DNA of 64,000 bases, from the NCBI RefSeq assembly GCF_001458355.1, contig NZ_CYSA01000019.1:1-64000 (forward strand). The letters run 5' to 3'. Shown piece after piece: positions 5,956 to 59,286 of this stretch (position 1 is the stretch's first letter; the number at the start of each line of letters is the position of its first letter). The position numbers and the translations under genes are program-made. Origin of the DNA: Thalassovita gelatinovora. Lineage in GTDB: Bacteria > Pseudomonadota > Alphaproteobacteria > Rhodobacterales > Rhodobacteraceae. The notes below the pieces were generated by a model. It searched no databases. It was given only the letters and a program-made list of their open reading frames with translations, and was not told the DNA's origin.

Positions 5956-6062
5956 TTGGGGATCTCGGAATTAAAGACCCGCAACTGCTGCATATTTTTC
6001 GTTGCGCCGTCCAGAGAAAAGAACCATCCCGACCGCTCTGAGCCCCCCTGCCCCGCAAACTG

Positions 6063-6092
6063 AAAAGGCCCCCGCAAATGCGAGGGCCTTTT
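6063..6092 (-). terminator. Intrinsic terminator after rpoC
   Basis: AAAAGGCCC pairs with GGGCCTTTT around an inner CGC/GCG and an AAAT loop, 20 nt beyond the rpoC stop. The flanking A and T runs make it usable in both directions. It marks the end of the rplJL-rpoBC unit. Confidence 0.8.
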
Positions 6093-6111
6093 CGTCATCA
6101 GTTTCGGACGT

Positions 6112-10353
<4,242 letters not shown>

Positions 10354-10405
10354 TTTGATACCTCAAATTTTGCGGAAGGGGGGACGGGATGAGGGCGCGA
10401 CGCCC

Positions 10406-31437: not shown

Positions 31438-31441
31438 AGCA

Positions 31442-37605: not shown

Positions 37606-37845
37606 GGTCGGTAATCCCTCGCTTTTCCTTAGCCTTAGCAGCGGGTCCTGCCCTCGGCCAAACGTTTTATGGAATATCGGTTGAACTGGTCCCGATCCTT
37701 CTCCAAGCTTACCGGTGGAGACATGGCCGCATAACGTGGCTATGCTGCAAGACATGTCAGACCGCGCGGGACCATCGGCAACCCTGCCGGGACACTGGTG
37801 TGCACAGCTGATCTTTGAACGCAACAAAATTTCCGGAGCCTTATA

Positions 37846-38691
37846 ATGCGTATTCGACTGGGATGCCGATTGTCTTTCTGGCTGCCGCAACCGACCCCGA
37901 TGATCATGCTGCTCAACGTCCATTATTCCCGCGCCAGCGATCTGGAACGGCCCGACCTTCTGGTCACCGATCCGCCAGTCCCGATCGAGGCTTACCGTGA
38001 TGGCTTTGGCAACTGGTGCAGCAGGTTGATCGCCCCCGCAGGCCTGTTCACGGTTTCAACCGATGGGGTTCTCAACGATGCCGGGCTTTCAGACCCGGTC
38101 GATCAATCCGCAGAACAACAGCCGGTCGAACAGCTTCCCAGCGATGTGCTGCCGTTTTTGCTGGCCAGCCGGTACTGCGAAAGCGACGTTCTTTCGGATT
38201 TCGCCTGGAACCGTTTCAACCATGAACCGCTTGGCTGGGCCCGCGTCCAGGCGGTGTGCGACTTCGTCCACAATCATGTCCAGTTCGGTTATGAACAATC
38301 GCGACCGACCCGGACAGCGGTAGAGACATTGAACGAAGGCGTCGGTGTTTGCCGGGATTTCACCCATCTGGCGGTCGCGTTGTGCCGCTGTCTCAACATC
38401 CCGACAAGGTACTGCACCGGATATATAAGTGACATTGGGCAACCACAGACCCACGCCGCAATGGATTTTGCCGCCTGGATGGAGGTGTATCTTGGCGGCA
38501 AGTGGTGGGTGTTCGATCCGCGCAACAACGATACCCGCTTTGGACGCGTCCTGATCGCACGCGGGCGTGATGCCGCCGATGTGCCGTTGACCCATAGTTT
38601 CGGTCAACATGACCTCAGGGGGTTCGAAGTGTGGATCAATGAGATCGAAGATGAGGCCGATCCTTCTTCAGGACAGCGCCAACCGCTCTGA
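37846..38691 (+). CDS. Transglutaminase-like superfamily protein
   Basis: A 281-residue protein with an N-terminal beta-rich domain (1-110) and a transglutaminase-like core. The catalytic cysteine is C169 (GVCRDFTHLA) and the aspartate is in FDPRNN at about 224. The usual His of the H-A-W motif is replaced by Ala209 (MDFAAW), with H203 six residues upstream. Relatives that lack this histidine are common in proteobacteria, so it may work with a different residue or not be catalytic. No signal peptide is evident. It is a single gene that converges with the acyl-CoA dehydrogenase. Confidence 0.85.
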   Translation: MRIRLGCRLSFWLPQPTPMIMLLNVHYSRASDLERPDLLVTDPPVPIEAYRDGFGNWCSRLIAPAGLFTVSTDGVLNDAGLSDPVDQSAEQQPVEQLPSDVLPFLLASRYCESDVLSDFAWNRFNHEPLGWARVQAVCDFVHNHVQFGYEQSRPTRTAVETLNEGVGVCRDFTHLAVALCRCLNIPTRYCTGYISDIGQPQTHAAMDFAAWMEVYLGGKWWVFDPRNNDTRFGRVLIARGRDAADVPLTHSFGQHDLRGFEVWINEIEDEADPSSGQRQPL

Positions 38692-42980: not shown

Positions 42981-44339
42981 TCAGGTTGGCAGACCTTCAA
43001 GCGCAGCACCCAACTTTTCCAGAAGTTCATCAATCTGGGCCTCGTCGATGATCATCGGCGGGCACAGGCCGATCGTTTCATAAATATTACGCACGATCAG
43101 ACCCTGCTCTGCGGCAAGTTTAGAAGCCGTCGCAGCGATATACCCCGCCGGTTCATAACTTTTCTTGGTCGCTTTGTCGGCCACCAGTTCGATCCCGGCG
43201 ATCAGGCCGACACCGCGAACTTCACCCACCATCGGATGATCCGAAAATTTACGCAGTCCCGACTGGAACTTGTCCTCGAGCCGGGCGACGTTGCCCATCA
43301 GATCTTGTTCTTCGATGATCTTGATGTTTTCCAATGCGACCGCACAGGCCACCGGGTTGCCCCCGGCGGTAAAGCCATGCCCCAAAGTGCCCAATTGTTC
43401 GGTGTAATCGGCAATCACCTGATAAACCTCGTCCGTCATCAGGATCGCTGCCAGGGGCATATAGGACGACGTCAACTGCTTCGACGTCACCAGGATATCG
43501 GGTTTGAAACCATAGCGTTCACAGCCAAAGGGTTTGCCGGTACGGCCGAACCCGTTGATCACCTCATCCGACACAATCAGGATATCGTATTTCCGGCAAA
43601 GCGCTTCGATACCCGGCCAATAACCTTCGGGCGGGGTCATCACACCACCCGCGCCCATCACCGGTTCACCAATAAAGGCGGCGATGGTTTCGGGGCCTTC
43701 GGCAAGGATTGTTTCCTCAGCTTCTTTCAACAAACGCGCGGTAAATTCCGCCTCGGTCTCGCCGTCTTCGGCCCAGCGATAGTAGTGCGGACAGGTCAGA
43801 TGAACGACCGGGATCGCGGGTAGGTCGAAGCCTTTCTGGTTACCCGGCAGACCAGTCAAAGAGCCAGAGGCGACGGTAATGCCGTGATAGGCCTTGTTGC
43901 GCGACAGAAACTTTTTCTTTTCCGGGCGGCCCAGCATGTTGTTCATGAACCAGACGAATTTGACCACGGTGTCATTCGCCTCGGAGCCAGAGTTGGTATA
44001 GAAAACCTTGGTCAGATGTTCCGGCGTGATTTCCACCAGCTTTTCCGACAGCAGAATGCCCGGCGCATGCGCTTTATGGGCGAAGTTCTGATAGTAGGGC
44101 AGCTCGGCCATCTGCTTGGCCGCTGCTTCGACCAGACGCGGTTGCGAAAAGCCGACGCCGACCGACCACAGCCCGGCGAGCCCTTCGAGATATTTTTTGC
44201 CCTCGCTATCATAGACATAGCACCCGTCACCTTTGGTGATGATCATCGGACCCTGCTTTTCGTGAACGCGGGCATTGGTGTAGGGGTGCAGTTGATAGGC
44301 GATATCAGTTTCTTGCAGCGAATTTGAACGAGTGGTCAT
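42981..44339 (-). CDS. Class III aminotransferase (omega-amine:pyruvate type)
   Basis: A 452-residue fold-type I PLP enzyme. The PLP lysine is K287 in VTSKQLTSSY and the pyridine-nitrogen aspartate is D258 in LIVSDEVINGFGRTG. The VTSKQLTSSYMPLAA block occurs in roseobacter omega-transaminases that accept amines such as putrescine, taurine or beta-alanine with pyruvate. The amine here is unknown. It lies 47 nt downstream of the HDAC-family amidohydrolase, suggesting that a free amine made by that enzyme is its substrate. Confidence 0.88.
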   Translation of the reverse strand: MTTRSNSLQETDIAYQLHPYTNARVHEKQGPMIITKGDGCYVYDSEGKKYLEGLAGLWSVGVGFSQPRLVEAAAKQMAELPYYQNFAHKAHAPGILLSEKLVEITPEHLTKVFYTNSGSEANDTVVKFVWFMNNMLGRPEKKKFLSRNKAYHGITVASGSLTGLPGNQKGFDLPAIPVVHLTCPHYYRWAEDGETEAEFTARLLKEAEETILAEGPETIAAFIGEPVMGAGGVMTPPEGYWPGIEALCRKYDILIVSDEVINGFGRTGKPFGCERYGFKPDILVTSKQLTSSYMPLAAILMTDEVYQVIADYTEQLGTLGHGFTAGGNPVACAVALENIKIIEEQDLMGNVARLEDKFQSGLRKFSDHPMVGEVRGVGLIAGIELVADKATKKSYEPAGYIAATASKLAAEQGLIVRNIYETIGLCPPMIIDEAQIDELLEKLGAALEGLPT

Positions 44340-44386
44340 CAGGATCTCCGGTTTCTCGGTGGCAAGGTGCAGCGTTTGCGAAAGAG

Positions 44387-45415
44387 TTATTTTCTCCCGG
44401 TGTATCCGGAAAGAAATGCGGTAAGTGAAGTGCTCAGATCAGGTGAGAGATATCCCCCCTCCTGAATCAAAACGGTTGGCAGACCCGCCCCGGCAATCAT
44501 GCTGCCAGCCCGGGTGAACCCGTCGAAGGTAACTTGCAGCCCCTTGAGCGGATCATTTTCGTGTGCGTCCAGCCCAAGGGCGACGACAAGCGCATCTGGC
44601 GCAAATTCTGCGATACGGTCAAGGGCGGTCGCGATCGTGTCACACCATCCGTCATCCGAGGTCGAGCGCGCCAGCGGCATGTTGACGTTGAACCCTTCGC
44701 CCGCACCAGCCCCGGCTTCATTCGCATAACCGACAAAGAACGGATAATAATCTTCGGGCGTTGCGTGGATCGAAATCGTCAACACGTCGCCGCGTTCGTA
44801 AAAAATGTCCTGTGTCCCGTTACCGTGATGGACGTCGATATCCAGCACGGCGACCTTGCGATTTTTTGTCCGCAGCGTTTCCACAGCGGTGGCGGTGTTG
44901 TTCACGATGCAATGACCTGCAGCCACGTCAGCCGAACTGTGATGCCCCGGCGGGCGGCACAGGCCATAAGCCGCATCCGCGCCCTGCAACACGGCCTGCG
45001 CCGCAGCATAAGCCGTGGCCGCCCCGGCCAATGCCGCTTCCCAGCTATGTTCACCGATCGGGGCCGAGGTGTCGCCAAGGTGCCAACCCGCCTTTCCCAG
45101 AATATGGCTGGGATAGGTTTTGACCTTGTTCAAGGCATGGACGTTAGGGACAACTTCCTTACCGGCATTCGGCAAAGTCTGCCATTCGTCCCATGCCGTT
45201 TCCATGAATTGCAGGAACCGCTGGGTATGGACTTTTTCGAGTATGTCGCGAGGGACATCCGCTGCGGGTTCTTCGGTGGCGAAACCCAGCTTCGCCAGCC
45301 CAGCCAGAAGCAAATGTGCGCGCTCTGCCTGTTCGGCATTCTGCGCAACCACACCGGCAGAGAGACGAAAAACCGGATCATGTAATTCGGTAGAGGCTGC
45401 ATAAAAACATTTCAT
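44387..45415 (-). CDS. Histone-deacetylase-family amidohydrolase (acetylpolyamine type)
   Basis: A 342-residue zinc deacylase of the arginase/deacetylase fold. Catalytic histidines H158 and H159 are in RPPGHHS; zinc ligands are D194 and H196 (LDIDVHHGNG) and D283 (GLDAHENDP). Bacterial members include acetylpolyamine amidohydrolases that deacetylate acetylputrescine or acetylcadaverine. It overlaps the upstream GntR gene by 4 nt and precedes the aminotransferase, so removal of an acetyl group before transamination is a reasonable reading. Confidence 0.88.
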   Translation of the reverse strand: MKCFYAASTELHDPVFRLSAGVVAQNAEQAERAHLLLAGLAKLGFATEEPAADVPRDILEKVHTQRFLQFMETAWDEWQTLPNAGKEVVPNVHALNKVKTYPSHILGKAGWHLGDTSAPIGEHSWEAALAGAATAYAAAQAVLQGADAAYGLCRPPGHHSSADVAAGHCIVNNTATAVETLRTKNRKVAVLDIDVHHGNGTQDIFYERGDVLTISIHATPEDYYPFFVGYANEAGAGAGEGFNVNMPLARSTSDDGWCDTIATALDRIAEFAPDALVVALGLDAHENDPLKGLQVTFDGFTRAGSMIAGAGLPTVLIQEGGYLSPDLSTSLTAFLSGYTGRK

Positions 45416-46128
45416 ATGTCAGAGCTTTCTTCATCCGTTGCAAAGGATTTGGTAACGACTTCACGTGCGACGCCGATGTGATAGTCAATCGCGTCTACAG
45501 CCGCAGTACTGTCACGCGCTTCGATCGCGGCCAGAATGGGTTCATGGGTTTCCGCCAACTTTCGAGGATCATCGTACAGACGTCCGATCACTAAAAGGCC
45601 CAATTTTGTTTCATTGGCAATCTGCTCAAAGACCTGCAAATAGCGCGGGTTCCCCGACCCTTCGCAAATCAGGCGGTGAAACTGAAGGTCGGCATTCACA
45701 TGCGTGATCATGTCGGTGGCTTTGCCGGCTAGACGATGAAGTCTGCTCAACTGCGCCTTGAGACCGGGAAGCGCCGCTTCGGCATTGGCTTCAACCAGCC
45801 GGGCGATGGCGGCGGATTCAATCACGATCCGAAGCTCATACAGGTTATCCATCGTTGCTGCCGACACGGTATGCACAAAAAAACCGCGGTTTGTTTTGTA
45901 GTCGACAAGGCCAGAGCTTTCCAACAAGCGCAGCGCCTCGCGAACCGGCGCGCGGCTCAGGTCCATCTGTCGGGCGATGGTGGATTCGGCCAGTCGATCC
46001 CCAGGAGAAAGCCGCCCCGACAGGATCGCTTCGACCAGCGAACCTGCGACTTGATTGACCAATCCATCCCGGCTCAGAGGTGAAAAGCCCCCCGCTTGGT
46101 CATGCAAACCTTTGTCGCCCTTGCCCAT
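45412..46128 (-). CDS. GntR-family regulator with FCD domain
   Basis: A 238-residue repressor-type protein. The N-terminal winged helix (about 15-80, containing LAESTIARQMDLSRAPVREALRLLESSGLV) precedes an all-helical FCD effector domain (about 90-220) of the FadR/VanR type that usually binds an organic acid with a metal ion. It overlaps the HDAC gene by 4 nt and is divergent from the aldolase-ABC operon, so it most likely controls both arms. A perfect palindrome at 46193-46204 is a candidate operator. Confidence 0.92.
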   Translation of the reverse strand: MGKGDKGLHDQAGGFSPLSRDGLVNQVAGSLVEAILSGRLSPGDRLAESTIARQMDLSRAPVREALRLLESSGLVDYKTNRGFFVHTVSAATMDNLYELRIVIESAAIARLVEANAEAALPGLKAQLSRLHRLAGKATDMITHVNADLQFHRLICEGSGNPRYLQVFEQIANETKLGLLVIGRLYDDPRKLAETHEPILAAIEARDSTAAVDAIDYHIGVAREVVTKSFATDEESSDI

Positions 46129-46192
46129 ATACGGCCCCTAGTTGGCACAATTATTAGCGCATTTTCATTTTTGACTATCTCAGTATTTGTCG

Positions 46193-46204
46193 ATTGTCGA
46201 CAAT
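46193..46204. promoter_or_regulatory. Palindromic operator candidate for the GntR/FCD regulator
   Basis: ATTGTCGACAAT is a perfect 12-bp palindrome in the 137-nt divergent region. It fits the TTGT-N2-ACAA pattern used by FCD-type GntR repressors. A further TTGTCGAT half-site sits just to its left at 46187-46194. Confidence 0.6.
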
Positions 46205-46265
46205 TACCTTGACTCTACAGCGCAACGCCCTTTTGCTGACCTCAACAAAGCGAATGGGGCAAAGA

Positions 46266-47147
46266 ATGACCGATAAAGTAGCAGGCCGACGTCCGCAGCC
46301 GGGTCGAAACGATGACACGCCAAGCGGCCAGAGCGTGGCCGGAGCGATGAAACCCCATTCCATCGGCGGGCAATCCGCCGCAACAACATCTCCAGCGGAA
46401 TATGACGAGGCGGCGCTGCGCCACGATCTGGCCGCCGCGTACAGAATGATCGCCCTCATGGGAATGGATGACAGCATCTACACCCATATCTCTGCCCGTT
46501 TGGCCGATGGCCCGGATGGTCAGAAACGGTTCTTGTTGAACCCGTTTGGTTTGCGCTTCGATGAAGTCACGGCCTCGACCCTCGTAACCATCGACGAATT
46601 GGGAAACGTTCTGGATGATCCTTACGGTGCGGGGGTGAATGCTGCTGGATTTACGATCCATTCCGCGGTTCACATGGCCCGCCATGATGCAACCTGCGTA
46701 CTGCATACCCATACCGTTGCCGGCGTCGCCATCAGTTCGGTCAAAGAAGGCCTGCTGCCGCTCAATCAATGGTCCGCTCAGTTCCACGGTGCCATCGCCT
46801 ATCACGATTACGAAGGCATTGCACTGGATCTGGACGAACGCAGCCGGATCGTTTCCGACCTTGGCGCCAAGAACGTAATGTTCCTGCGCAATCACGGTGT
46901 TCTGGTCTGTGGCCGCACCATTGCCGAAGCTGTGCGGTTGGCTCTCAACCTTGAACGATCCTGCAAGGCACAGATTGCGGCCCTGTCGATGGGATTGACG
47001 CCCGCCCCTCTGTCCGACAACGTGGCTGCACATACAGCGGGACAATATGCCAGCTCATATGACGAGATCATCCGATCTGGCAATGACCCCGAATGGATGG
47101 CCATGCTGCGGCTTCTGGACGGCAAAACGCCCGGTTATGCCGCGTGA
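46266..47147 (+). CDS. Class II aldolase/adducin family protein
   Basis: A 293-residue zinc aldolase/epimerase-fold protein. Zinc-binding histidines are H147 and H149 (LHTHTVAG) and H210 (RNHGVLV), the usual pattern of fuculose-phosphate aldolase relatives. About 45 N-terminal residues are low-complexity and polar. The start is uncertain: ATG codons at 46254, 46266 and 46347 are in frame and none has a strong ribosome site. It is the first gene of the ABC operon. The substrate is unknown; many members act on sugar phosphates or hydroxyacids. Confidence 0.85.
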   Translation: MTDKVAGRRPQPGRNDDTPSGQSVAGAMKPHSIGGQSAATTSPAEYDEAALRHDLAAAYRMIALMGMDDSIYTHISARLADGPDGQKRFLLNPFGLRFDEVTASTLVTIDELGNVLDDPYGAGVNAAGFTIHSAVHMARHDATCVLHTHTVAGVAISSVKEGLLPLNQWSAQFHGAIAYHDYEGIALDLDERSRIVSDLGAKNVMFLRNHGVLVCGRTIAEAVRLALNLERSCKAQIAALSMGLTPAPLSDNVAAHTAGQYASSYDEIIRSGNDPEWMAMLRLLDGKTPGYAA

Positions 47148-47182
47148 TGCCACGGCCTGACCGCGACCAATAACCAACAATA

Positions 47183-47200
47183 GTGCGTGCAAACACGCAC
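47183..47200 (+). other. Hairpin upstream of the binding-protein gene
   Basis: GTGCGTG/CACGCAC around CAAA, in the 90-nt gap between aldolase and binding protein. No T-run follows. It may protect the 5' end of the abundant binding-protein message. Confidence 0.45.
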
Positions 47201-47237
47201 ACCTCATCACCCAAATCAAAGAAACAGGGATGAAGAC

Positions 47238-48782
47238 ATGAAGTATTTTAAGCTCACAACCTTTCTGGTTGCAGCCGCTTTCGCGCAAAGCGTATCGGCT
47301 CAAACCGATGGTGGCCGCCTCGACGTAGTAATCCAGCCCGAACCGCCTGGGCTGATGCTGGGTTTGGTGCAAAACGGCCCGACCCAGATGGTTGCCGGTC
47401 AGCTTTACGAAGGTCTGCTGCGCTACAACTCCGATCTGGAGCCGCAGCCTTCGCTGGCCAAAAGCTGGGAAATTGCCGAAGACGGCATGACCTACACCTT
47501 CCACCTGAACGAAGGTGTGACATGGCATGACGGCGAACCCTTCACCTCGGCTGATGTGCTGTTCACAACTGAATTCCTCAAGGACAGTCACGCCCGCTTC
47601 CGCGCGTCGTTCAGCCATGTGGAAAGCATTGAAACACCTGACGATCTGACCGTGGTCATCCACATGAAGGAACCTTACGGCCCCTTCATCAACGCTTTCG
47701 AAACCGGCTCGATGCCGATCGTGCCGAAACACATCTATGAAGGCACCGACTACGCGACCAACCCGATGAACGCGACCCCCATCGGAACCGGCCCTTTCAA
47801 GTTCAAGGAATGGGTCAAGGGCAGTTATATCCATCTGGTCAAGAACGATGACTACTACCTCGATGGCCTGCCGCACCTGGACGAAGTGTATTACCGCGTG
47901 GTTCCTGATGCCGCCGCGCGCGCAGTGGCCTTTGAAACCGGTGAAGTCGACGTGTTGCCCGGCGGCGCCGTCGAAAACTGGGACGTCAAGCGCCTGACCG
48001 AAATGGAAGATGTCTGCTCGACCTCGGCGGGCTGGGAATTCTTCGCACCCCATGCCTGGATGTGGCTGAACAACCGCGAAGGCCCGACCGCCGACAAGCG
48101 GTTCCGCCAAGCCGTGATGTTCGGGCTGGATCGTGAATTCGTGAAAGACGTGGTTTGGAACGGTTTCGGCACCGTGCCCACGGGTCCGGTTTCGACCAAG
48201 ACCAACTTCTATTCCGATGACGTACCAATGTATCCGCATGACCCGGAAAAGGCCAAGGCACTGTTGGCTGACATGGGTTATGACGGCACACCCGTCCGCC
48301 TGCTGCCGCTACCCTATGGCGAAACCTGGCAACGATGGGCCGAAGCGGTCAAACAGAACCTTGGCGAAGTCGGCATCGTCGTCGAAATCGAATCTGCCGA
48401 TGTTGCCGGCTGGAATGAAAAGACGGCCAATTGGGATTACGATATGGCCTTCACCTATCTTTACCAATACGGCGATCCGGCCTTGGGCGTGTCGCGCAAC
48501 TATACCATGAGTCAGATCAAGAAAGGCAGCCCGTGGAACAACGTCGAAGGGTATGAAAATCCCGAACTCGACAAAAAATGGGACGCCGCCGCAGTTGAAC
48601 CCGACTTGGCAAAACGGGCCGCGCTCTACAACGAAATCCAGAAAGAGATCGTCGAAGATGTGCCCGTTGCCTGGCTGCTCGAAATCGAATTCCCGACGAT
48701 CTATCGTTGCAACGTCAAGAACCTGATCACCACCGGTGTCGGGCTCAACAACGGCCTGCGCGACGCCTGGATCGAAGAGTAA
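47238..48782 (+). CDS. ABC transporter substrate-binding protein, family 5
   Basis: A 514-residue periplasmic solute-binding protein of the dipeptide/oligopeptide/nickel class (SBP_bac_5). The first 21 residues form a signal peptide ending SVSA before QTDGG, so it is a soluble periplasmic protein and not a lipoprotein. The ATG at 47238 follows an AGGGA site. Its ligand is likely a small peptide or charged amine derivative; the neighbouring deacetylase and aminotransferase favour an acylated amine. It is followed by a strong hairpin and the two permeases. Confidence 0.9.
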   Translation: MKYFKLTTFLVAAAFAQSVSAQTDGGRLDVVIQPEPPGLMLGLVQNGPTQMVAGQLYEGLLRYNSDLEPQPSLAKSWEIAEDGMTYTFHLNEGVTWHDGEPFTSADVLFTTEFLKDSHARFRASFSHVESIETPDDLTVVIHMKEPYGPFINAFETGSMPIVPKHIYEGTDYATNPMNATPIGTGPFKFKEWVKGSYIHLVKNDDYYLDGLPHLDEVYYRVVPDAAARAVAFETGEVDVLPGGAVENWDVKRLTEMEDVCSTSAGWEFFAPHAWMWLNNREGPTADKRFRQAVMFGLDREFVKDVVWNGFGTVPTGPVSTKTNFYSDDVPMYPHDPEKAKALLADMGYDGTPVRLLPLPYGETWQRWAEAVKQNLGEVGIVVEIESADVAGWNEKTANWDYDMAFTYLYQYGDPALGVSRNYTMSQIKKGSPWNNVEGYENPELDKKWDAAAVEPDLAKRAALYNEIQKEIVEDVPVAWLLEIEFPTIYRCNVKNLITTGVGLNNGLRDAWIEE

Positions 48783-48789
48783 TCGAAAG

Positions 48790-48817
48790 GCGCGGGGCTG
48801 GAATTCCAGCCCCGCGC
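48790..48817 (+). terminator. Intercistronic partial terminator after the binding-protein gene
   Basis: A 12-bp GC-rich perfect stem (GCGCGGGGCTGG and its complement) with an AATT loop, followed by TTTAG. It starts 7 nt after the stop codon. Such hairpins commonly let the binding protein be made in excess over the permeases. Confidence 0.75.
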
Positions 48818-48891
48818 TTTAGCACAGACACAATAATGCGGCCACGGCGGACAAAGCACCCCTGGCCGTCCCGCCGGACAAAGGACGACCA

Positions 48892-49869
48892 ATGACCATT
48901 GTCGGACCCGTTCTAGGACGTTTGTTCAAGGCAGTATTGACGCTACTTGCCATCGCGATCCTGAACTTTTTTCTCATTCACGCCGCCCCGGGCGACCCTG
49001 CCGCAGTACTGGCTGGCGAAGCGGGTGCTGCTGACGAACAGATGATTGCCGATCTGCGGGCCCAGTTCGGTCTGGACCAACCTTTTTACATCCAGCTCGG
49101 AACTTATGTTGGAAACGTGCTGACGCTTGATCTTGGCTATTCGTTCCGACAAGGCGCACCGGTGCTGGATCTTATCCTTGACCGGCTGCCTGCCACACTC
49201 ATCCTGACATTGACGGCCTTCGGTATCTCGCTGACCTTAGGGATCATGCTGGGCGTGGCTGCTTCGGCGCGGGTGGGCAAACCTGCCGACAGCCTGCTGA
49301 CCGGCTTTGCGCTGATCTTTTACGCCACGCCGCTTTACTGGGCGGCGCTGATGGCGGTGCTGGTGTTCTCGGTGCAACTCGGCTGGCTGCCCGGGTTTGG
49401 CTATGAAACCGTTGGCGCAGACTATACCGGGCTGCAACGGGTTGGGGACATCCTGTCCCATCTGGTCCTGCCCGCCCTGACGCTGGGGCTTTTCTTCATG
49501 GCGGTCTATATGCGCATGACGCGGGCGTCGATGCTGGAAGTCGCGCAACAGGATTTCGTCAAAACCGCGCGAGCCAAGGGCCTGTCCCCGTCGGTGATCC
49601 GTCGCCGCCATATCCTGCGCAACGCGCTTTTACCCGTCGTTACATTGGCCGGTCTGCAGGCAGGACAACTGATCGGCGGCGCAGTGCTGACCGAAACGGT
49701 GTTCGCCTGGCCGGGCATCGGACGGCTGATGTTCGAAAGCCTCGCAGCGCGGGACTACAACACCATTCTTGGCGTGTTTCTGGTGTCTGCCGCGATGGTA
49801 ATCCTGTTCAACATCGTGACCGACATCGTTTACGGCCTGATCGATCCACGCATCCGGCATACGGCCTGA
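48892..49869 (+). CDS. ABC transporter permease (DppB/OppB type)
   Basis: A 325-residue inner-membrane permease with six predicted transmembrane helices. The N-terminal LNFFLIHAAPGDPAAVLAGE stretch and the EAA loop (about 213-235, MLEVAQQDFVKTARAKGLS) that docks on the ATPase are typical of DppB. It starts 110 nt after the binding-protein gene and forms a heterodimer with the next gene product. Confidence 0.93.
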   Translation: MTIVGPVLGRLFKAVLTLLAIAILNFFLIHAAPGDPAAVLAGEAGAADEQMIADLRAQFGLDQPFYIQLGTYVGNVLTLDLGYSFRQGAPVLDLILDRLPATLILTLTAFGISLTLGIMLGVAASARVGKPADSLLTGFALIFYATPLYWAALMAVLVFSVQLGWLPGFGYETVGADYTGLQRVGDILSHLVLPALTLGLFFMAVYMRMTRASMLEVAQQDFVKTARAKGLSPSVIRRRHILRNALLPVVTLAGLQAGQLIGGAVLTETVFAWPGIGRLMFESLAARDYNTILGVFLVSAAMVILFNIVTDIVYGLIDPRIRHTA

Positions 49870-49879
49870 GGAGACAAAC

Positions 49880-50719
49880 ATGAGCTTCTGGAAACGCTTT
49901 GCCAGAAATCGCGGCGCAGTCTTCGGGCTGGTCCTGTTGCTGGCCGTCATCATCATCGCGCTGATTGCGCCGATGATTTACCCACGCGGCCCCTGGCCAA
50001 TGGTCCAACGCCCCTTTCTCGCACCATATGCCGTTGACGGCTTGCCGCTTGGCACCGACACGCTGGGCCGGAACGTGGCTGCCGGGCTTGTTTATGGTGC
50101 GCAGGTTTCCTTGCTGGTCGGGTTGATTTCGACGGTCATGGCCCTGTTAATCGGTGTGCCGCTGGGTGCGGTGGCGGGATTTTATGGTGGTTGGCTGGAC
50201 GAAGGTGCGATGCGCTTTACAGAATTCTTTCAAACCATCCCGAACTTTGCTCTGGCCATCGTGCTTGTGGCCATTCTTGAACCGTCATTGACATCGATCA
50301 CCCTGTCGATTGCCATCGTCAGTTGGCCCCCGGTGGCGCGGCTCGTCCGGGCCGAGGTCATGTCAGTGTCCAAGCGCGAATATGTCGATGCCGCCCGCCT
50401 GGCCGGTCTTTCGAATCTGCGCATCCTTGTGGGGCAAGTCCTGCCCAACACCGTTTCGCCGATCATCGTCATGGCGTCCTTGATGGTCGCAACCGCAATC
50501 TTGCTTGAAAGTTCGCTATCATTCCTTGGTCTTGGCGACCCCAATATCATGTCATGGGGATATCAGATCGGCGCGGCGCGCACCGTGATCCGGTCGGCCT
50601 GGTGGCTCAGTTTCTTCCCCGGCCTTGCCATCGTGTTGACCGTTCTGGCGCTGAACCTGATCGGTGAAGGGTTGAACGACGCCTTGAATCCCCACCTGTC
50701 ACGGAAGGGACGCACATGA
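49880..50719 (+). CDS. ABC transporter permease (DppC/OppC type)
   Basis: A 279-residue permease with six predicted helices and the conserved LPLGTDTLGRNV segment after the first helix. The EAA loop (VMSVSKREYVDAARLAGLS) is present. It starts 10 nt after the first permease and overlaps the ATPase gene by 4 nt, so permease and ATPase translation are coupled. Confidence 0.93.
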   Translation: MSFWKRFARNRGAVFGLVLLLAVIIIALIAPMIYPRGPWPMVQRPFLAPYAVDGLPLGTDTLGRNVAAGLVYGAQVSLLVGLISTVMALLIGVPLGAVAGFYGGWLDEGAMRFTEFFQTIPNFALAIVLVAILEPSLTSITLSIAIVSWPPVARLVRAEVMSVSKREYVDAARLAGLSNLRILVGQVLPNTVSPIIVMASLMVATAILLESSLSFLGLGDPNIMSWGYQIGAARTVIRSAWWLSFFPGLAIVLTVLALNLIGEGLNDALNPHLSRKGRT

Positions 50720-52338
50720 CCAATCCAGTTCTTTCGATCGAGCATCTCAGCATCAAGCTTCCCGACGGGGCGGATCGGCAATTCGCCGTGGACGATTGCA
50801 GCTATACGCTCGACAAGGGTGAAATCCTTTGCGTTGTTGGTGAAAGCGGTTCGGGCAAGTCGATGACGGCCAATGCCCTGATGGGCCTTCTGCCCGAAGG
50901 GGTGAGCGTCGGTGCGGGCCGCGCTGTTTTCGAAGGCAAGAACATCCTGCGCCAAACCGAAGCGGAAAGCCAAGATCTGCGCGGTGCCAAGATCGCAATG
51001 ATCTTTCAGGAACCGATGACAGCGCTCAATCCGCTCATGCGGATTGGCGACCAGATCAGCGAAGTGTTCGAAGCCCACAAGCGACATACACCGTCGGAAC
51101 GGCGCAAACGGGCGCTGGATCTGGTGCGCGAGGTCGACTTGCCCGACCCGGAAAAAATCATCCGTGCCTATCCGTTCCAACTCTCGGGCGGGCAACGTCA
51201 GCGGGCAATGATCGCGATGGCGCTGGCGCTTGAACCGCAGATCTTGATCGCGGACGAACCGACAACGGCGCTCGACGTGACAACACAGGCCCAGATCCTC
51301 AAACTGATCCTCGACCTACGCAAAAAGCGTGACATGGCGGTGATATTCATCACCCATGATTTCGGTGTCGTGGCCGAAATCGCCGATAAGGTGCTTGTCA
51401 TGCGCTACGGGAAAATCGTTGAACGGGGCACTACCGATGCGGTGCTGAAAACCCCGCAACACGATTATACCAAGCACCTTTTGGCTGCCATCCCGTCGGG
51501 GCTGGTCCCGCAAAATGCTGAGGTGCAGAATTCTCCGGCACTGGAAATAAAGGCGCTGAATAAGGTTTTCCGCACCGGTGGCGGCTTCATGAAACCGCAC
51601 CGCGAAGTGCGCGCCATCGACAATATTTCGCTGTCCATCGCCAAGGGTGAAGTCTTGGGGCTGGTAGGCGAATCCGGTTCGGGGAAATCCACATTGGGCC
51701 GGGCGGTGGTCCGGTTGGTGACGCCGGATAGCGGCCAAATCCTCGTTGGTGGCAGCGATATGGCCGCGCTCAGCGAAACCGAATTGCGCCGTGCGCGTTA
51801 CAAGGTTCAAATGGTGTTTCAGGACCCTTATGCGTCGCTCAACCCACGGCACAAGATCCTGCGCGCACTGACGGATGGCCCCATCGCCAAGGCGGTGCCC
51901 AAAGAACAGGCCCGTGCCCGCGCGCACGAATTGATGGAAATCGTCGGTCTTGGCGCAGACGCGGTGGATCGCTTCCCGCACGAATTTTCTGGCGGACAAC
52001 GGCAACGTATCGGGATCGCCCGCGCATTGGCCATGGACCCGGATCTGATCATCGCAGACGAAGCCGTTTCGGCCCTCGACGTGTCGATTCAGGCGCAGGT
52101 TCTGGATCTGCTCCGCGATCTTCGCAGCAAGCTGAACTTATCGATCCTCTTCATCACCCATGACCTGCGCGTTGCTGCCCAGCTTTGCGACCGCATCGCC
52201 GTCATGCAAAAAGGCAAGCTCGTCGAAATCGGGCCGGTGTCCGACGTGTTCCTGAACCCGCAGGATGACTATACCAAGCGCCTGCTCGCCGCTGTACCGG
52301 GGGGCGGTTGGGGTCTTGCCGAGGCGGCCTTGACATGA
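50716..52338 (+). CDS. Fused ABC ATPase (DppD-DppF type)
   Basis: A 540-residue protein that joins two ATPase domains normally encoded by separate dppD and dppF genes. The first Walker A is GESGSGKS at about residue 37, with signature SGGQRQR near 157 and Walker B LIADEP; the second Walker A is GESGSGKS near 318 and the second signature is FSGGQRQR near 425. The oligopeptide-type C-terminal extensions are short. It would energise import by the two permeases. It overlaps the dehydrogenase gene by 4 nt (ATGA). Confidence 0.95.
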   Translation: MTNPVLSIEHLSIKLPDGADRQFAVDDCSYTLDKGEILCVVGESGSGKSMTANALMGLLPEGVSVGAGRAVFEGKNILRQTEAESQDLRGAKIAMIFQEPMTALNPLMRIGDQISEVFEAHKRHTPSERRKRALDLVREVDLPDPEKIIRAYPFQLSGGQRQRAMIAMALALEPQILIADEPTTALDVTTQAQILKLILDLRKKRDMAVIFITHDFGVVAEIADKVLVMRYGKIVERGTTDAVLKTPQHDYTKHLLAAIPSGLVPQNAEVQNSPALEIKALNKVFRTGGGFMKPHREVRAIDNISLSIAKGEVLGLVGESGSGKSTLGRAVVRLVTPDSGQILVGGSDMAALSETELRRARYKVQMVFQDPYASLNPRHKILRALTDGPIAKAVPKEQARARAHELMEIVGLGADAVDRFPHEFSGGQRQRIGIARALAMDPDLIIADEAVSALDVSIQAQVLDLLRDLRSKLNLSILFITHDLRVAAQLCDRIAVMQKGKLVEIGPVSDVFLNPQDDYTKRLLAAVPGGGWGLAEAALT

Positions 52339-53261
52339 TCAAGGACCGGCGTTCCGGCATTGTCGCCACCTGTTCTGCACTGGATTTGATGGCGCTATAT
52401 GAACAGCCCTTTCTCGAATTCGCACCTGAAATAGACCTGATACCGCCAGAAGCGGTTTCAGTCCCGGAAGCCGTCGAATATGTGCTGACCTGGAAACCCG
52501 AAGATGATGCCTTTGTGCCCTATCCCAATCTGCGCGCGGTGTTTTCCATCGCCGCAGGGATCGACGGGATACTGGAATGTCCCTCATTGCCCGATGTGCC
52601 GGTGTTCCGGGTCGAAGATCCGGATCAAGCGCAACAGATGGCAGGCTTCGCCGCCTTTCACGTGGTTTGGCACCATCGCGACATGGGGGCCTATTTGAAA
52701 GCCCAGAAAAGCCACAGTTGGCAGCGCGATGTGGGCAAGCAATCCCCCCGGCACAAACGTATCGGGATCATGGGGTTTGGCCTGATGGGGCGCGCCATCG
52801 GAAAAGGGCTGACCGCGCTGGGATATGACGTGACGACCCTTTCACGCCGTCCCCCCACGCCCGCCGAACCGGGCATGCGCCACATGACCACCGACCAAAC
52901 GCAATCGTTTCTGGCTGGCACGGATATCCTGATCAATGTCATGCCACTAACCCCGGAAACCCAAGGCATTCTGAACCGCGACCTCTTTGCGGCGCTGCCC
53001 AAAGGTGCTGTTTTGATCCAGATGGGGCGCGGCGCGCAATTGATCGAGTCCGATCTGCTGGATGCCCTCGAAAGCGGGCAGATTTCAGGCGCGTCACTTG
53101 ACGTGTTCGGGACCGAACCGTTGCCGCCTGAAAGCCCGCTTTGGGATCATCCGAAGCTTTTCCTGACCCCGCATGTGGCCAGCACACCCGAAGCAGCAGC
53201 CGTCGTCCGTTCGGTGCGGGCGGGACTTTCTACGCTCTCGCAAAACGGTTTAACAGACTAG
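52335..53261 (+). CDS. GhrA-like glyoxylate/hydroxypyruvate reductase (D-2-hydroxyacid dehydrogenase)
   Basis: A 308-residue NAD(P)-dependent 2-hydroxyacid dehydrogenase. The dinucleotide motif GIMGFGLMGRAIG lies at residues 144-156, followed by the conserved RGAQLIESDLLDALESG and the C-terminal histidine in LTPHVAS. It would reduce glyoxylate or hydroxypyruvate, or oxidise a D-2-hydroxyacid. It shares a 4-nt overlap with the ATPase gene, so it belongs to the transport operon and probably handles a product of the imported compound. Confidence 0.9.
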   Translation: MIKDRRSGIVATCSALDLMALYEQPFLEFAPEIDLIPPEAVSVPEAVEYVLTWKPEDDAFVPYPNLRAVFSIAAGIDGILECPSLPDVPVFRVEDPDQAQQMAGFAAFHVVWHHRDMGAYLKAQKSHSWQRDVGKQSPRHKRIGIMGFGLMGRAIGKGLTALGYDVTTLSRRPPTPAEPGMRHMTTDQTQSFLAGTDILINVMPLTPETQGILNRDLFAALPKGAVLIQMGRGAQLIESDLLDALESGQISGASLDVFGTEPLPPESPLWDHPKLFLTPHVASTPEAAAVVRSVRAGLSTLSQNGLTD

Positions 53262-53978: not shown

Positions 53979-55379
53979 TCAAGCCCAGTTCGGGGTTGTC
54001 ACCACAGGCACGTTGCCGGCGTTTTCAATGTCCTGCCCGGCAGCCAACAGGATATCTTCGCGGAATCGAGGTCCGATCAATTGCACGCCGACCGGCCTGT
54101 GATCGGCTTCACCAGTTGCGACTGACAGCGCAGGGACGCCGATCACGGGCAAAGCCCGTTGGATAAGTTGTGCCTCCATCGCGGCCGCGAAAGCATCTTC
54201 GGAACTGACATCCTGTTGCTGAGCGAACGGCAACTCTCCTGAAACCGGGCAAATGAGAACAGGATAGTCCTTCAAAAACAATTCCCATTGCCGCACCAAT
54301 GCGACCCGTGCCTGAAGCGACTTCATCAACGTGTCAAAGCCAACTTCACCGGCATCCCTTGTCATGTGTTCGAAGACAAACTGCGAATCCGGCTCTGCTT
54401 CGCGTTCGATCATTTCGCGTGCGCCGAATTGGGTATCCGCCATCCAAAGTTGCGCATTGATTTCAGCAGCAAGCCGCATCGGTGGGCACGCGACCTCTTC
54501 GACTATCCAACCTGCTGCCTTCAATCTTTCCGCAGTGTCGAACAAGGCGGCCCGGACTTCGTCGGCAACGGGCATGCCGTCTGGTGCGATCGTCAACGCA
54601 GCACGTTTTTGGTAATCCCCGCCCGCCATCGGCGCGGATACGTACCACGGGTCGCGCAAATCCGGCGCGGCCATGGCGGCCAACGATATCCCAATGTCGG
54701 AAATGCTGCGGGCAATCGGCCCGGACACCGCCATAATCTGCGCCCCGATGAAACGGTCCGGCGCGCTGGCATTGTAGGCCGGAATTCTTCCGAAAGTGGG
54801 GCGCAGGCCGTGAAGACCGCAGGCATAAGCAGGGTAGCGGATGGACCCCGCGATATCAGTGCCGTGCCCTATGGCGCAAAGCCCTGCCGCAACCGCCGCG
54901 GCCGCGCCACCAGAAGATCCGCCCGGCGTTATCGCCTTGTTTCGCGGGTTCAGCGTTTGCCCATGCAGGTTGTTATTGGTAAACCAGCGCAGCGAAAAAG
55001 CCGGCGTGTTGGTACGCCCGATAATCACCCCGCCTGCTTTGCGGATGTTTGAAACCACCGGACTGTCATGCTGCGCCACCAGATTTTCCTGCAATCTGAG
55101 CCCGTTTGTTGTCGCTTGACCTTCTTGATCCACATTCACCTTGATTGTCACCGGAACGCCGCACAGAACGCCCGGATCTTCGCCGCGCGCAATGGCTTCA
55201 TCGACTTGTCGAGCTGCCTGCAATGCATCTTCTGGAAATTCCTGCACCACCGCGTTTACCGTTGGGTTCACATCGGCAATGCGCTGTAGATGCGCCTTGG
55301 TCACTTCCGTCGCCGACAGAGCTTTCGATCGCACTGCTGTGGCGATTTCGGAAGCGGTAAGATTCCAGATTTGCGACAT
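53979..55379 (-). CDS. Amidase signature family protein
   Basis: A 466-residue amidase signature enzyme. The Ser-cisSer-Lys triad is readable: K80 (VPVTIKVN), S155 (TPGGSSGG) and nucleophile S179 (TDIAGSIRYPA). It hydrolyses an amide, but the substrate cannot be inferred from sequence; malonamidase E2 of Bradyrhizobium belongs to this family and the mat genes lie immediately upstream on the same strand. The start MSQIWNL is chosen because longer in-frame starts lack similarity. A 275-nt gap with a hairpin separates it from the mat operon. Confidence 0.88.
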   Translation of the reverse strand: MSQIWNLTASEIATAVRSKALSATEVTKAHLQRIADVNPTVNAVVQEFPEDALQAARQVDEAIARGEDPGVLCGVPVTIKVNVDQEGQATTNGLRLQENLVAQHDSPVVSNIRKAGGVIIGRTNTPAFSLRWFTNNNLHGQTLNPRNKAITPGGSSGGAAAAVAAGLCAIGHGTDIAGSIRYPAYACGLHGLRPTFGRIPAYNASAPDRFIGAQIMAVSGPIARSISDIGISLAAMAAPDLRDPWYVSAPMAGGDYQKRAALTIAPDGMPVADEVRAALFDTAERLKAAGWIVEEVACPPMRLAAEINAQLWMADTQFGAREMIEREAEPDSQFVFEHMTRDAGEVGFDTLMKSLQARVALVRQWELFLKDYPVLICPVSGELPFAQQQDVSSEDAFAAAMEAQLIQRALPVIGVPALSVATGEADHRPVGVQLIGPRFREDILLAAGQDIENAGNVPVVTTPNWA

Positions 55380-55605
55380 GAAACATCTCCTTTGGGATTC
55401 ACCGGAGAACATTGCACGTATCGCCCCCGTAGCACAGGGCCAGGAAGAATGAGCCGATATTGCGAACCCTGTTATCTTCTCGGAAGAACAGAAATTTGCC
55501 AATGCGGCCCAAGTTTGAGGCATCTGTCGCGGTCGACGCCAATCATAGAGCGAGAAAGGTACCGCGCAGGGGTGGCTACCCTTTTTCATCGTATACGAAT
55601 TTAAC

Positions 55606-55634
55606 GGATCATGCGGATAGTCCCCGCATGATCC
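55606..55634 (-). terminator. Terminator-like hairpin after the mat operon
   Basis: An 11-bp perfect stem (GGATCATGCGG and its complement) 21 nt after the GlcG-like stop. The U-tract is weak (GUUAAAUU), so it may terminate only partly. Confidence 0.5.
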
Positions 55635-55654
55635 TTCACCGCCCCGGCTTGTCG

Positions 55655-56140
55655 TTAATGTTGATCCGACAGCGACGATTTACGCCAATCCGGGTCAAAA
55701 TTCGGTGGGTTCGACGCAAGCCCGACACTGCGGATCGCAAGAACACCACAGTATTCATCCTTTTCCGAAGAATCGCCGCTGATCCCGACTGCGCCGATGG
55801 TCATGCCGTCGGCGTCCTCGATCAAAGTCCCGCCCGGCACTGGGACAAACCGCCCATCCGACGCGGCCGCCAGCGCGGTCTGGAAGTTCGGGCGCGCGGA
55901 CAGATAATCACGGATCTGCCGGCTGGGCATCCCCATACCAAGCGATCCCCACGCCTTGCCAAAAGCGATATCGAAGCGCAGCAGGCCGCTGCCGTCTTCG
56001 GATTGCATCGCTTTCATGCGCCCCCCTGAATCCAGCACCACCACGGTCAGCGGTTTCATGCCTTCCTGCCGTCCGATTTCCAGCGCTTTTTCCAGAATGG
56101 CCGTAGCCGTTTCCAGCGGAAGACTCGATTTCAGTTTCAT
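55655..56140 (-). CDS. GlcG/HbpS-like protein at the end of the mat operon
   Basis: A 161-residue protein of the GlcG/HbpS family (PF03928), some members of which bind haem or cobalamin. The conserved LDSGGRMKAMQSEDGS, FGKAWGSLGMGMPS and GAVGISGDSSEKDEYC blocks are present. It lies 19 nt after matM, in the same operon. Homologues are often beside transport and catabolic genes, yet their role is not established. A haem-binding role is not proven here. Confidence 0.88.
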   Translation of the reverse strand: MKLKSSLPLETATAILEKALEIGRQEGMKPLTVVVLDSGGRMKAMQSEDGSGLLRFDIAFGKAWGSLGMGMPSRQIRDYLSARPNFQTALAAASDGRFVPVPGGTLIEDADGMTIGAVGISGDSSEKDEYCGVLAIRSVGLASNPPNFDPDWRKSSLSDQH

Positions 56141-56159
56141 GTTGTTTCCTTGCTCAAGT

Positions 56160-57482
56160 TCATCGGCTCATCATTTCGGGCAGCCATGTCACGATTTCGG
56201 GGAAAAGCAGCAGCACGATGATCGTTACCACATCCGCGACGAAAAAGATCGTGATCCCCCGAAACACGTCCGACAGCGGTATATCCGGCCTGACCGCGTT
56301 GACGACGAAACAGTTCAGCCCGATAGGGGGCGTGACAAGACAGACCTCTGCCATCTTGACGACGATGATACCGAACCAGATGGAATCGTAGCCCAGCGCC
56401 ATCACCGCCGGATATACCACCGGCAGGGTCAACAAAAGCATGCCGATCGCATCCATGAACATTCCCAGCACCGCATAGGCAAGCAGGATGCAGATCATGA
56501 TGACCAACGGCGGTGCATCAATCGATACGACCCAGGACGTAAACGCATCGGCCACCCCGGAAAACCCTAGAAAGCGCACGAAAATCGTGACGCCCCAGAT
56601 CAGCGAAAAGATCATCACCGTCAGCTTGGCTGTTTCCATCAGAGAACCCGAAATCGCCTTGAGACCGGCACCACGGGCAATCGCGACGACAAAGACCACT
56701 GCCGCGCCCAATGCTCCGGCTTCGGTCGGGGTGGCCCAGCCTTGGTAGATCGCCGAGATGATAATCGCGACGACCAGCATGATCGGCATCAGCGGCGGCA
56801 GCGACACGGCCCGTTCTTTCCACGTCGATGACGGGACAGCAGGAGCCTCGTGCGGGCGAAACATCGCCCAAAGGATAATAATCAACGCATACACGATGGC
56901 CGACACCAGCCCCGGCAAGAACCCCGCAAGCAGCAGCTTGCCGACGCTTTCTTCGACGATGATCGCATAGATCACCAGAATGGCCGAAGGTGGAATCAAC
57001 GTGGCAAGCGTACCACCAGCCGCAACGACACCCGCCGCCAGCTTGCGATCATAGCCGTATTTCAGCATTTCGGGCACAGCGACGCGGGCAAAGACCGCAG
57101 ATGTCGCCGTTGACGCACCGGACACGGCCGCAAACCCGGCGGTCGCAAAGACCGTGGCCACGGCAAGCCCGCCGGGCAGCCAGCTTAGCCATTTTCGCGC
57201 AGCATCAAAGAGTTGCGTTGTCATACCAGCGTGAAAAGCGACGAACCCGATAAAAATAAACATGGGCAGCACGCTAAGCGCATAGGTCGATGACTTGGCG
57301 TGCGGCACGATCCCGACGATGCCCGCTGCCGGCCCCCAGCCGATCAGTTCGACCAGCCCCAGCAGACCAACCGTCGCGGCCGCGATCACCACGCGCACGC
57401 CGATCACGACAAGAATCAATAACAGGCCAATCCCGATCAGCCCGACCAGTAGAGGGTTTGAAAATCCGATGCCGATCAGCAT
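56160..57482 (-). CDS. matM: TRAP transporter large permease (malonate type)
   Basis: A 440-residue membrane protein with about 12 helices, the DctM-type large subunit of a TRAP transporter, which couples substrate import to sodium. The start MLIGIGFSNPLLVG lies one base after the stop of the small subunit. Conserved blocks include GFAAVSGASTATSAVFARVAVPEM and LIPPSAILVIYAIIVEES. The assignment to malonate follows from the operon context, as in the MatPQM system of Sinorhizobium meliloti. Confidence 0.9.
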   Translation of the reverse strand: MLIGIGFSNPLLVGLIGIGLLLILVVIGVRVVIAAATVGLLGLVELIGWGPAAGIVGIVPHAKSSTYALSVLPMFIFIGFVAFHAGMTTQLFDAARKWLSWLPGGLAVATVFATAGFAAVSGASTATSAVFARVAVPEMLKYGYDRKLAAGVVAAGGTLATLIPPSAILVIYAIIVEESVGKLLLAGFLPGLVSAIVYALIIILWAMFRPHEAPAVPSSTWKERAVSLPPLMPIMLVVAIIISAIYQGWATPTEAGALGAAVVFVVAIARGAGLKAISGSLMETAKLTVMIFSLIWGVTIFVRFLGFSGVADAFTSWVVSIDAPPLVIMICILLAYAVLGMFMDAIGMLLLTLPVVYPAVMALGYDSIWFGIIVVKMAEVCLVTPPIGLNCFVVNAVRPDIPLSDVFRGITIFFVADVVTIIVLLLFPEIVTWLPEMMSR

Positions 57483-57483
57483 G

Positions 57484-58110
57484 TCAGCGTCCTTCCTTAT
57501 CGGCTTCGTCACCAAGCACTTCGTGGGCTTCTTCACGGGCCGTTTCAGCGGCATCCTTGAGTGACACCACGCCTTCGTGCGCGTGGCTGGGGTAAATGAA
57601 CAACCGTACGGATCCGGCCAACTGGATGCCCAGCCGCAGGAACCAAAAGGCGAAAGCGATGGGCACCAACAGCTTGGATGGCCAGACCGGGTATTCTGCG
57701 TCTATGGTCGTGTCGCCGATCTGGTAGGATCGCAGGAAATGGTCCCAGCTATACCAGATCAACACAGCAACGATTGCCATCCCCAGAAGCGACCCGACGA
57801 TTTCCGCCAACCAGTAAGACCGTCCCCAGAGACGCCCCAACAGCAGCTCCATTCGGATATGTGCGCCCATACGCTGGGTATACGCCGCCCCAAGGAACGC
57901 CATGCCGGCCATCGATAGCTCGACCAGATCGATGTAGCCTGACAGCGGATTGTTAAAGAAGGTCCGCATGACAATCTGCGCCACGCCCAACAGCATCAGC
58001 AGAAAGATAAACGTCGCGGCGATAAAGTTAGCAGCGTCTTCGACTGGCATCATGAACCGGTCACACCGGCCAATCCAGCCAGACGCCTGGGCGTCGTTGG
58101 AAACACGCAT
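57484..58110 (-). CDS. matQ: TRAP transporter small permease (malonate type)
   Basis: A 208-residue DctQ-type protein with four predicted helices (about 20-45, 50-80, 90-115 and 145-165). Its C-terminal tail of about 35 residues is rich in Glu, Asp and Ala and extends beyond the helices. The ATG at 58110 is supported by family length. It is 78 nt after matP and one nt before matM. Confidence 0.88.
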   Translation of the reverse strand: MRVSNDAQASGWIGRCDRFMMPVEDAANFIAATFIFLLMLLGVAQIVMRTFFNNPLSGYIDLVELSMAGMAFLGAAYTQRMGAHIRMELLLGRLWGRSYWLAEIVGSLLGMAIVAVLIWYSWDHFLRSYQIGDTTIDAEYPVWPSKLLVPIAFAFWFLRLGIQLAGSVRLFIYPSHAHEGVVSLKDAAETAREEAHEVLGDEADKEGR

Positions 58111-58188
58111 CCTGATCACGTCCTTGCCAAGAGTAATAGAATGGGATCGCGGAGGAAGCCGCGATCCCGAAAACAAACTGCGAAGAAT

Positions 58189-59229: not shown

Positions 59230-59286
59230 CTTTTCCTCCTCAAAAGATTGTTGGTTCAAACACAGGGCCCCTCTGCCCCGTGCGGT

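Follow-up and report, generated by a model that had tools for sequence, protein, structure and literature searches.

A 64,000-nucleotide stretch of Thalassovita gelatinovora DNA (contig NZ_CYSA01000019.1, positions 1 to 64,000; hereafter, the window) carries two divergent gene arms that likely form a conserved but patchy catabolic island for the uptake and breakdown of amides. One arm encodes a GntR/FCD regulator, a deacylase of the histone deacetylase (HDAC) fold and a class III aminotransferase. The other encodes a class II aldolase, an SBP5-type ATP-binding cassette (ABC) importer and a GhrA-like dehydrogenase (Table 1), and a palindrome that is probably an operator lies between the two. 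Our favored interpretation, which in our judgment could equally prove right or wrong, is that the cluster serves the GntR/FCD-controlled import and breakdown of an amide with an omega-amine moiety and, probably, a hydroxy acid moiety.

An earlier note, made without database searches, had named nine genes in the two arms and described the importer as complete. All nine are present among the open reading frames of the window, with matching coordinates and strands, and a family match was found for each by using Pfam and NCBIfam profiles with curated cut-offs. The importer is indeed complete, because Pfam matches cover a SBP_bac_5 protein, two BPD_transp_1 permeases and a double ABC ATPase. The most likely start of the aldolase is the ATG at 46266, and that of the binding protein is the ATG at 47238, which gives an N terminus resembling a signal peptide.

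Conservation of the gene set

The earlier note held that a genuine unit should recur in other genomes, and this one does. A search for the HDAC-fold protein over 295 genomes of the family (E <= 1e-90) matched 73 of them, of which 12, including the source genome, have a protein of at least 60% identity; the next match is at 53%. We inspected stretches of 17 to 20 kb around the 11 other close orthologues. GntR and HDAC genes diverge from an aldolase gene in nine of these loci, and the aminotransferase is present in nine, the importer in eight and the GhrA-like gene in seven. Among the remaining arrangements, locus L038 (2998-8439) keeps the arm of GntR, HDAC and aminotransferase (the last at 90%), with a branched-chain-type ABC importer (Peripla_BP_6) replacing the SBP5 arm; L047 retains everything except the importer, for which its 20-kb stretch has no match; and L043 has the HDAC gene without partners. 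An M20 deacylase gene follows the HDAC gene in four of the 11 loci (L039, L040, L041 and L044), and the L041 copy places it in the PRK06837 subfamily. In L039, L041, L044, L071 and L098, the GhrA-like gene is followed on its own strand by a gene for a PRK07487-type amidase. The last of these loci, from a genome of the same genus (G679), has the same set as the window, plus the M20 gene after the HDAC gene and this amidase gene. The binding protein is found in two of the nine genomes of the genus examined, the source genome included, and the island is therefore patchy. A scan of genome contigs for related loci confirmed no relative. The two other HDAC-family genes of the source genome (32-33% identity) are not surrounded by a matching set; a gabT-like gene and ABC ATPase genes are all that they have in common with it.

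Searches that started from the binding protein extended this distribution. In a plasmid collection, 325 records matched at E <= 1e-60, including 14 whose identity is at least 60%. Twelve plasmid neighborhoods, hand-picked among 30 listed matches, were read. Several of the same partners occur in Nitratireductor, Paracoccus, Qingshengfaniella, Skermanella, two Azospirillum, Chelatococcus and Haematobacter, and a similar set occurs on a plasmid of Comamonadaceae, that is, in a betaproteobacterium. In the same sample, the Neorhizobium binding protein has no partners, Pararhizobium has a 50% aminotransferase match and no HDAC, and Thioclava has an aminotransferase and no HDAC. At the class level, 19 of 385 genomes, including the source, matched at E <= 1e-160. 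We fetched 20 of the 26 other places found in this way, disregarding the presence of HDAC genes; an HDAC gene occurs in nine of these stretches (one at 36% identity) and an aldolase gene in seven, four of the 20 being contigs of about 10 kb or less.

Partner genes were then counted up to 10 kb away from the binding-protein gene at 40 related loci, consisting of the window, nine loci chosen via HDAC, the 12 hand-picked loci and 18 found by the binding protein alone. The counts are HDAC 27, aldolase 22, aminotransferase 17, M20 16, GhrA 16 (one at 37%) and KPR, a 2-dehydropantoate-reductase-family protein, 5. For the 18 loci found by the binding protein alone, they are HDAC 8, aldolase 7, M20 6, GhrA 6, aminotransferase 4 and KPR 2. 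By these counts, the association is real, although only part of the binding-protein family shows it. As a control, we fetched 13 of the 16 places in the same class that have a DppA-type protein. HDAC, aldolase, GhrA, KPR, M20 and carbamoylase-type hydrolase genes occur at none of the 13, and one of them has an aminotransferase gene with a gabT-like gene. More distant relatives of the binding protein also have different neighbors, both on pTiC58 (36%) and in Pseudohalocynthiibacter (42%), save for one M20 hydrolase about 6 kb away in the latter.

Table 1. Features of the divergent cluster in the window
Feature	Positions	Strand	Supporting match or property
Class III aminotransferase, PRK06105 subfamily	42981..44339	-	NF004767, 738.7 bits (cut-off 517); closest solved relatives 6tb1/6g4b, E ~1e-177
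HDAC-fold zinc amidohydrolase, acetylpolyamine amidohydrolase-like	44387..45415	-	Hist_deacetyl, 241 bits; RPPGHH, DIDVHHGN, GLDAHENDP and EGGY motifs
GntR/FCD transcriptional regulator	45412..46128	-	PF00392 and PF07729
12-bp palindrome ATTGTCGACAAT, probable GntR operator	46193..46204	no strand	Sole perfect copy in the genome; core in 18/18 intergenic regions
Class II aldolase/adducin-type protein, PRK07044	46266..47147	+	NF005451, 309 bits (cut-off 207)
SBP_bac_5 solute-binding protein, YQYGDP motif	47238..48782	+	PF00496, 297 bits
ABC permease, DppB/NikB type	48892..49869	+	BPD_transp_1 (Pfam; NCBIfam)
ABC permease, DppC/NikC type	49880..50719	+	BPD_transp_1 (Pfam; NCBIfam)
Fused double ABC ATPase, DppD-DppF type, 540 aa	50716..52338	+	Two ABC_tran stretches
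GhrA-like D-2-hydroxyacid dehydrogenase	52335..53261	+	PF02826 (2-Hacid_dh_C), 151 bits; best named model GhrA, 175.8 bits (below cut-off 403)

A conserved palindrome between the arms

The perfect 12-bp palindrome that the earlier note had pointed out between the arms is there, and its core is kept in relatives. ATTGTCGACAAT occurs once as a perfect copy in the 3,902,797 bases of the 3.9-Mb genome, and versions with one mismatch occur at 13 further places. The core, TGTCGACA, is present between the arms in all 18 divergent intergenic regions counted, which belong to loci selected for a GntR gene divergent from an aldolase or binding-protein gene. There are 19 copies in 3,600 bp of these intergenic regions versus 11 in the remaining 404,995 bp of these loci, an enrichment of about 194-fold. 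Within the window alone, the two copies of TGTCGACA compare with 0.94 expected, and 24 of 100 shuffles reach two. Taken by itself, this is not significant; the case for the palindrome comes from conservation across loci. The second copy in the window, at 35433-35440, is within an M24 peptidase gene.

A conserved site between the arms is what a divergent operon regulated by a GntR/FCD protein should have, and the palindrome shows the distribution expected of a shared operator, to which the GntR protein would probably bind. In most close relatives, a -35-like TTGAC lies a few bases downstream of the palindrome, toward the aldolase. This placement would suit repression of an aldolase-side promoter; we only infer such repression, because a simple promoter scan of the window listed no promoter in that direction.

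Protein families and candidate substrates

The HDAC-fold enzyme belongs to the same fold family as the acetylpolyamine amidohydrolase of Mycoplana ramosa and PA0321 and PA1409 of Pseudomonas aeruginosa, and retains their zinc and catalytic motifs and the acetyl-preferring RPPGHH and EGGY motifs. It differs from acetylpolyamine amidohydrolases in its gate motif (PLK, not PIS), in its linkage to an SBP5 importer and an aldolase, and at two positions occupied by glutamate in the M. ramosa enzyme. The position of Glu117, a residue to which we presume a role in that enzyme, is Ser or Ala in 35 of 35 sequences (Ser in the window). That of Glu106 is nonpolar in 33 of the 35 (Leu in the window), Glu in one and His in one. 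According to one study, Glu106 binds the polyamine amine, and PsApaH, which has His106, is a polyamine deacetylase all the same, so that Glu106 is not essential there (PMC11532494). Because PsApaH acts on polyamines, the nonpolar residue only weakens the case for a polyamine substrate. That study classifies bacterial deacylases, and its main text does not mention an aminotransferase or ABC transporter. We also considered, and rejected, a lysine gatekeeper in which DPLKG would act like PKG of HDAC6 on a carboxylate-bearing substrate: the Leu aligns with the gatekeeper, and close orthologues do not conserve the Lys (K, R, E, L, Q or M).

The importer has the domain make-up of DppABCDF/SBP5 peptide importers and differs from them in its fused ATPase, in its enzyme neighbors (compare the 0 of 13 for DppA-type loci above) and in the binding protein. 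Gln410, in the YQYGDP-type motif, stands where Escherichia coli DppA has an Asp that presumably anchors the peptide N terminus. In an alignment to the C-terminal 366 residues of E. coli DppA, this Gln is found in 22 of 22 sequences at 50% identity or more, the window included (three more distant sequences were aligned and left out of the count). The motif shared by these relatives suggests one ligand class. The NCBIfam DppA model gives the binding protein 116.8 bits, against a cut-off of 1005.

The aminotransferase exceeds the curated PRK06105 cut-off and is probably an omega-amine or omega-amino acid:pyruvate transaminase. Its match to the class III omega-transaminase 6g4b of Pseudomonas jessenii, which we take to be a 6-aminohexanoate transaminase, is nearly full-length (residues 5-448 of 452). 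The aldolase exceeds the cut-off of PRK07044, a model that names no substrate, and no NCBIfam model of a sugar-phosphate aldolase reached its cut-off for this protein. Like other PRK07044 class II aldolase/adducin proteins (3ocr and, more distantly, TqaM and NovR), it has conserved histidines; His147, His149 and His210 are invariant in 16 sequences and may form a metal site.

The dehydrogenase shares the D-2-hydroxyacid dehydrogenase domain with the glyoxylate/hydroxypyruvate reductase GhrA, but it scores below the cut-off for GhrA and is therefore not GhrA by that model. GhrA-like and PanE/KPR genes both follow the ATPase gene in many related operons, and the two never occur together within 10 kb at any of the 40 loci. 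This mutual replacement suggests that the enzyme in this slot interconverts a 2-oxo acid and a D-2-hydroxy acid. Four of the five KPR proteins keep the functional PanE residues Asn98, Lys176, Asn180, Asn184, Ser244 and Glu256. One aldehyde dehydrogenase seed has a match near only two of the 40 loci, one of which is its own. Because of this rarity, the product of the aminotransferase probably undergoes cleavage or reduction next, or else oxidation by an enzyme encoded elsewhere. Relatives have additional hydrolases of the M20, carbamoylase-type and amidase-signature families, which suggest more amide character than a single acetyl group.

From these families, we infer the following chemistry, order of steps and type of ligand. 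The GntR/FCD regulator, probably a repressor, would act at ATTGTCGACAAT on both arms, each presumably expressed as an operon. In the presence of the inducer, the SBP5 importer would take up a small molecule with one or more amide bonds, containing an omega-amino (or beta-alanine- or GABA-like) moiety and, probably, a hydroxy acid moiety. The HDAC-fold enzyme, helped in relatives by an M20 deacylase, carbamoylase-type hydrolase or amidase, would cut an amide on a terminal nitrogen, and the aminotransferase would transfer the freed amine to pyruvate. The adducin-type aldolase would then cleave, or decarboxylate, a hydroxy-oxo intermediate, and the GhrA-like enzyme would interconvert a 2-oxo acid, such as glyoxylate or ketopantoate, and its D-2-hydroxy acid. 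Several observations weigh against this scheme. HDAC is missing from 11, and aldolase from 13, of the 20 stretches found through the binding protein, some of these being short contigs, and the importer is therefore not always tied to either. Both the dehydrogenase and the aldolase come from families of broad function, and the KPR of L064 retains only Glu256 of the six PanE residues. Also, some relatives have M20 and in-operon amidase genes that are absent from the window, although a 54% M20 relative is encoded elsewhere in the genome.

The earlier note had proposed a route of uptake, deacylation, transamination and reduction acting on acetylated diamines or polyamines such as N-acetylputrescine and acetylcadaverine. 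Its uptake, amide hydrolysis and transamination fit our data, in that the importer is linked to hydrolases and an omega-type transaminase. Its substrate found little or no support, and we regard it as unlikely. The best-scoring solved relatives of the HDAC-fold enzyme are named acetylpolyamine amidohydrolases, the acetyl-preferring motifs are kept, and P. aeruginosa grows on acetylputrescine and acetylcadaverine, but less well when PA0321 or PA1409 is disrupted (PMC4784309). However, the Glu106 position argues against it, with the reservation raised by PsApaH; the aldehyde dehydrogenase expected after diamine transamination is as rare as noted above; and the aldolase and 2-hydroxyacid dehydrogenase would be left without an evident role. 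The importer, moreover, is of the SBP5 and not the Pot type, and a study of Ruegeria pomeroyi assigns cadaverine, putrescine and spermidine to a Pot-type system (PMC10130141).

An N-acylated hydroxy-diamine or hydroxylysine-like compound, with a kinase and phospholyase replacing the aminotransferase step in some relatives, would explain the pairs of phosphotransferase and class III aminotransferase genes annotated beside related clusters L060, L063, L065 and L066. The L065 pair and the L063 kinase match the two ends of PRK06148, and fused proteins of this kind are, we believe, linked to phospho-hydroxylysine and phosphoethanolamine lyases. Yet within 10 kb, the kinase is near only two of the 40 loci and the second aminotransferase near three, all hand-picked, and neither seed has a match in the window. 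We regard such a substrate as quite improbable. We consider it very unlikely that this is an ordinary oligopeptide, nickel or heme importer adjacent to the enzymes by chance. NikA and Opp4A are the best NCBIfam matches of the binding protein, but all 12 models matched fall below their cut-offs (NikA, 173.6 versus 393), Gln replaces the DppA Asp, and the same enzymes recur with this binding-protein subfamily and not at the 13 DppA-type loci.

Within the favored interpretation, amide breakdown with an omega-amine and a hydroxy acid part, the boldest candidate is a catabolism of pantothenate-type amides (pantothenate, pantetheine and related fragments of vitamin B5 or coenzyme A). We advance it as a doubtful hypothesis, on the grounds that a D-2-hydroxyacid dehydrogenase and a 2-dehydropantoate-reductase-family protein replace each other. 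It would give every enzyme of the cluster a use. After import, the amide hydrolases would free beta-alanine (and cysteamine) and D-pantoate; the omega-transaminase would turn beta-alanine into malonate semialdehyde; GhrA, or KPR in its place, would oxidize D-pantoate to 2-dehydropantoate; and the aldolase would split the latter into 2-oxoisovalerate and formaldehyde. The earlier note did not recognize its route as one already described, and we likewise found no description of this gene set in the open-license literature.

Surrounding genes and significance

The window also encodes EF-G, both large RNA polymerase subunits, the phenylalanyl-tRNA synthetase beta chain and pyruvate kinase, and the locus is therefore most likely chromosomal in T. 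gelatinovora. Within the plasmid collection, its nearest relative is carried by Pseudosulfitobacter sp. DSM 107133, on a plasmid of 571 kb; next to that cluster, no GhrA gene is annotated. Convergent to the cluster is a malonate-type operon (53979-62111, minus strand) with genes for a PRK07487 amidase, an HbpS-like protein, a TRAP transporter, malonyl-CoA synthase (PRK07514, above cut-off) and malonyl-CoA decarboxylase. Malonate decarboxylase genes adjoin the cluster of Azospirillum sp. B510. We rejected the operon as part of the unit; in the fetched stretches, its genes for malonyl-CoA synthase, malonyl-CoA decarboxylase and the TRAP transporter find no counterparts beyond four matches at 28-35% identity. 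The window's amidase is a 44-47% relative of the PRK07487-type amidases in related loci, is on the opposite strand and was not counted in the unit.

Within the window, positions 34654-37923 (minus strand) hold consecutive genes for EutA-like, M24 peptidase (distantly DoeA-like) and diaminopropionate ammonia-lyase-like proteins, reminiscent of ectoine utilization and all three below NCBIfam cut-offs. Three consecutive genes at positions 29918-32413 (plus strand) encode a type II haloacid dehalogenase, which scores above its cut-off, a protein resembling alpha/beta hydrolases, and a dehydratase that is closest to threo-3-hydroxyaspartate ammonia-lyase but scores below the cut-off of that model. 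Elsewhere in the genome, another M20 relative (53-54%) is encoded at locus L099 (contig C26, about 5200-10400) together with an aminotransferase (33%) and a GNAT acetyltransferase, an arrangement resembling a rhizobial set of aminotransferase, BKACE, GNAT and HDAC genes (L006). We also considered, and set aside, a link to siderophore degradation. Siderophore-type genes adjoin the cluster in Pseudosulfitobacter and Qingshengfaniella; none were seen in the other annotated plasmid stretches, and the siderophore-degradation literature listed showed nothing on the cluster.

To our knowledge, the substrates of many bacterial enzymes of the HDAC fold have yet to be found (compare PMC11532494). Here, such an enzyme is linked to an importer of its own, a single conserved site and recurring partner enzymes, and its substrate could therefore be found through the ligand of the binding protein. 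That substrate, if found, would also hint at a function for two families whose NCBIfam names specify no substrate, the aldolases of PRK07044 and the M20 deacylases of PRK06837.

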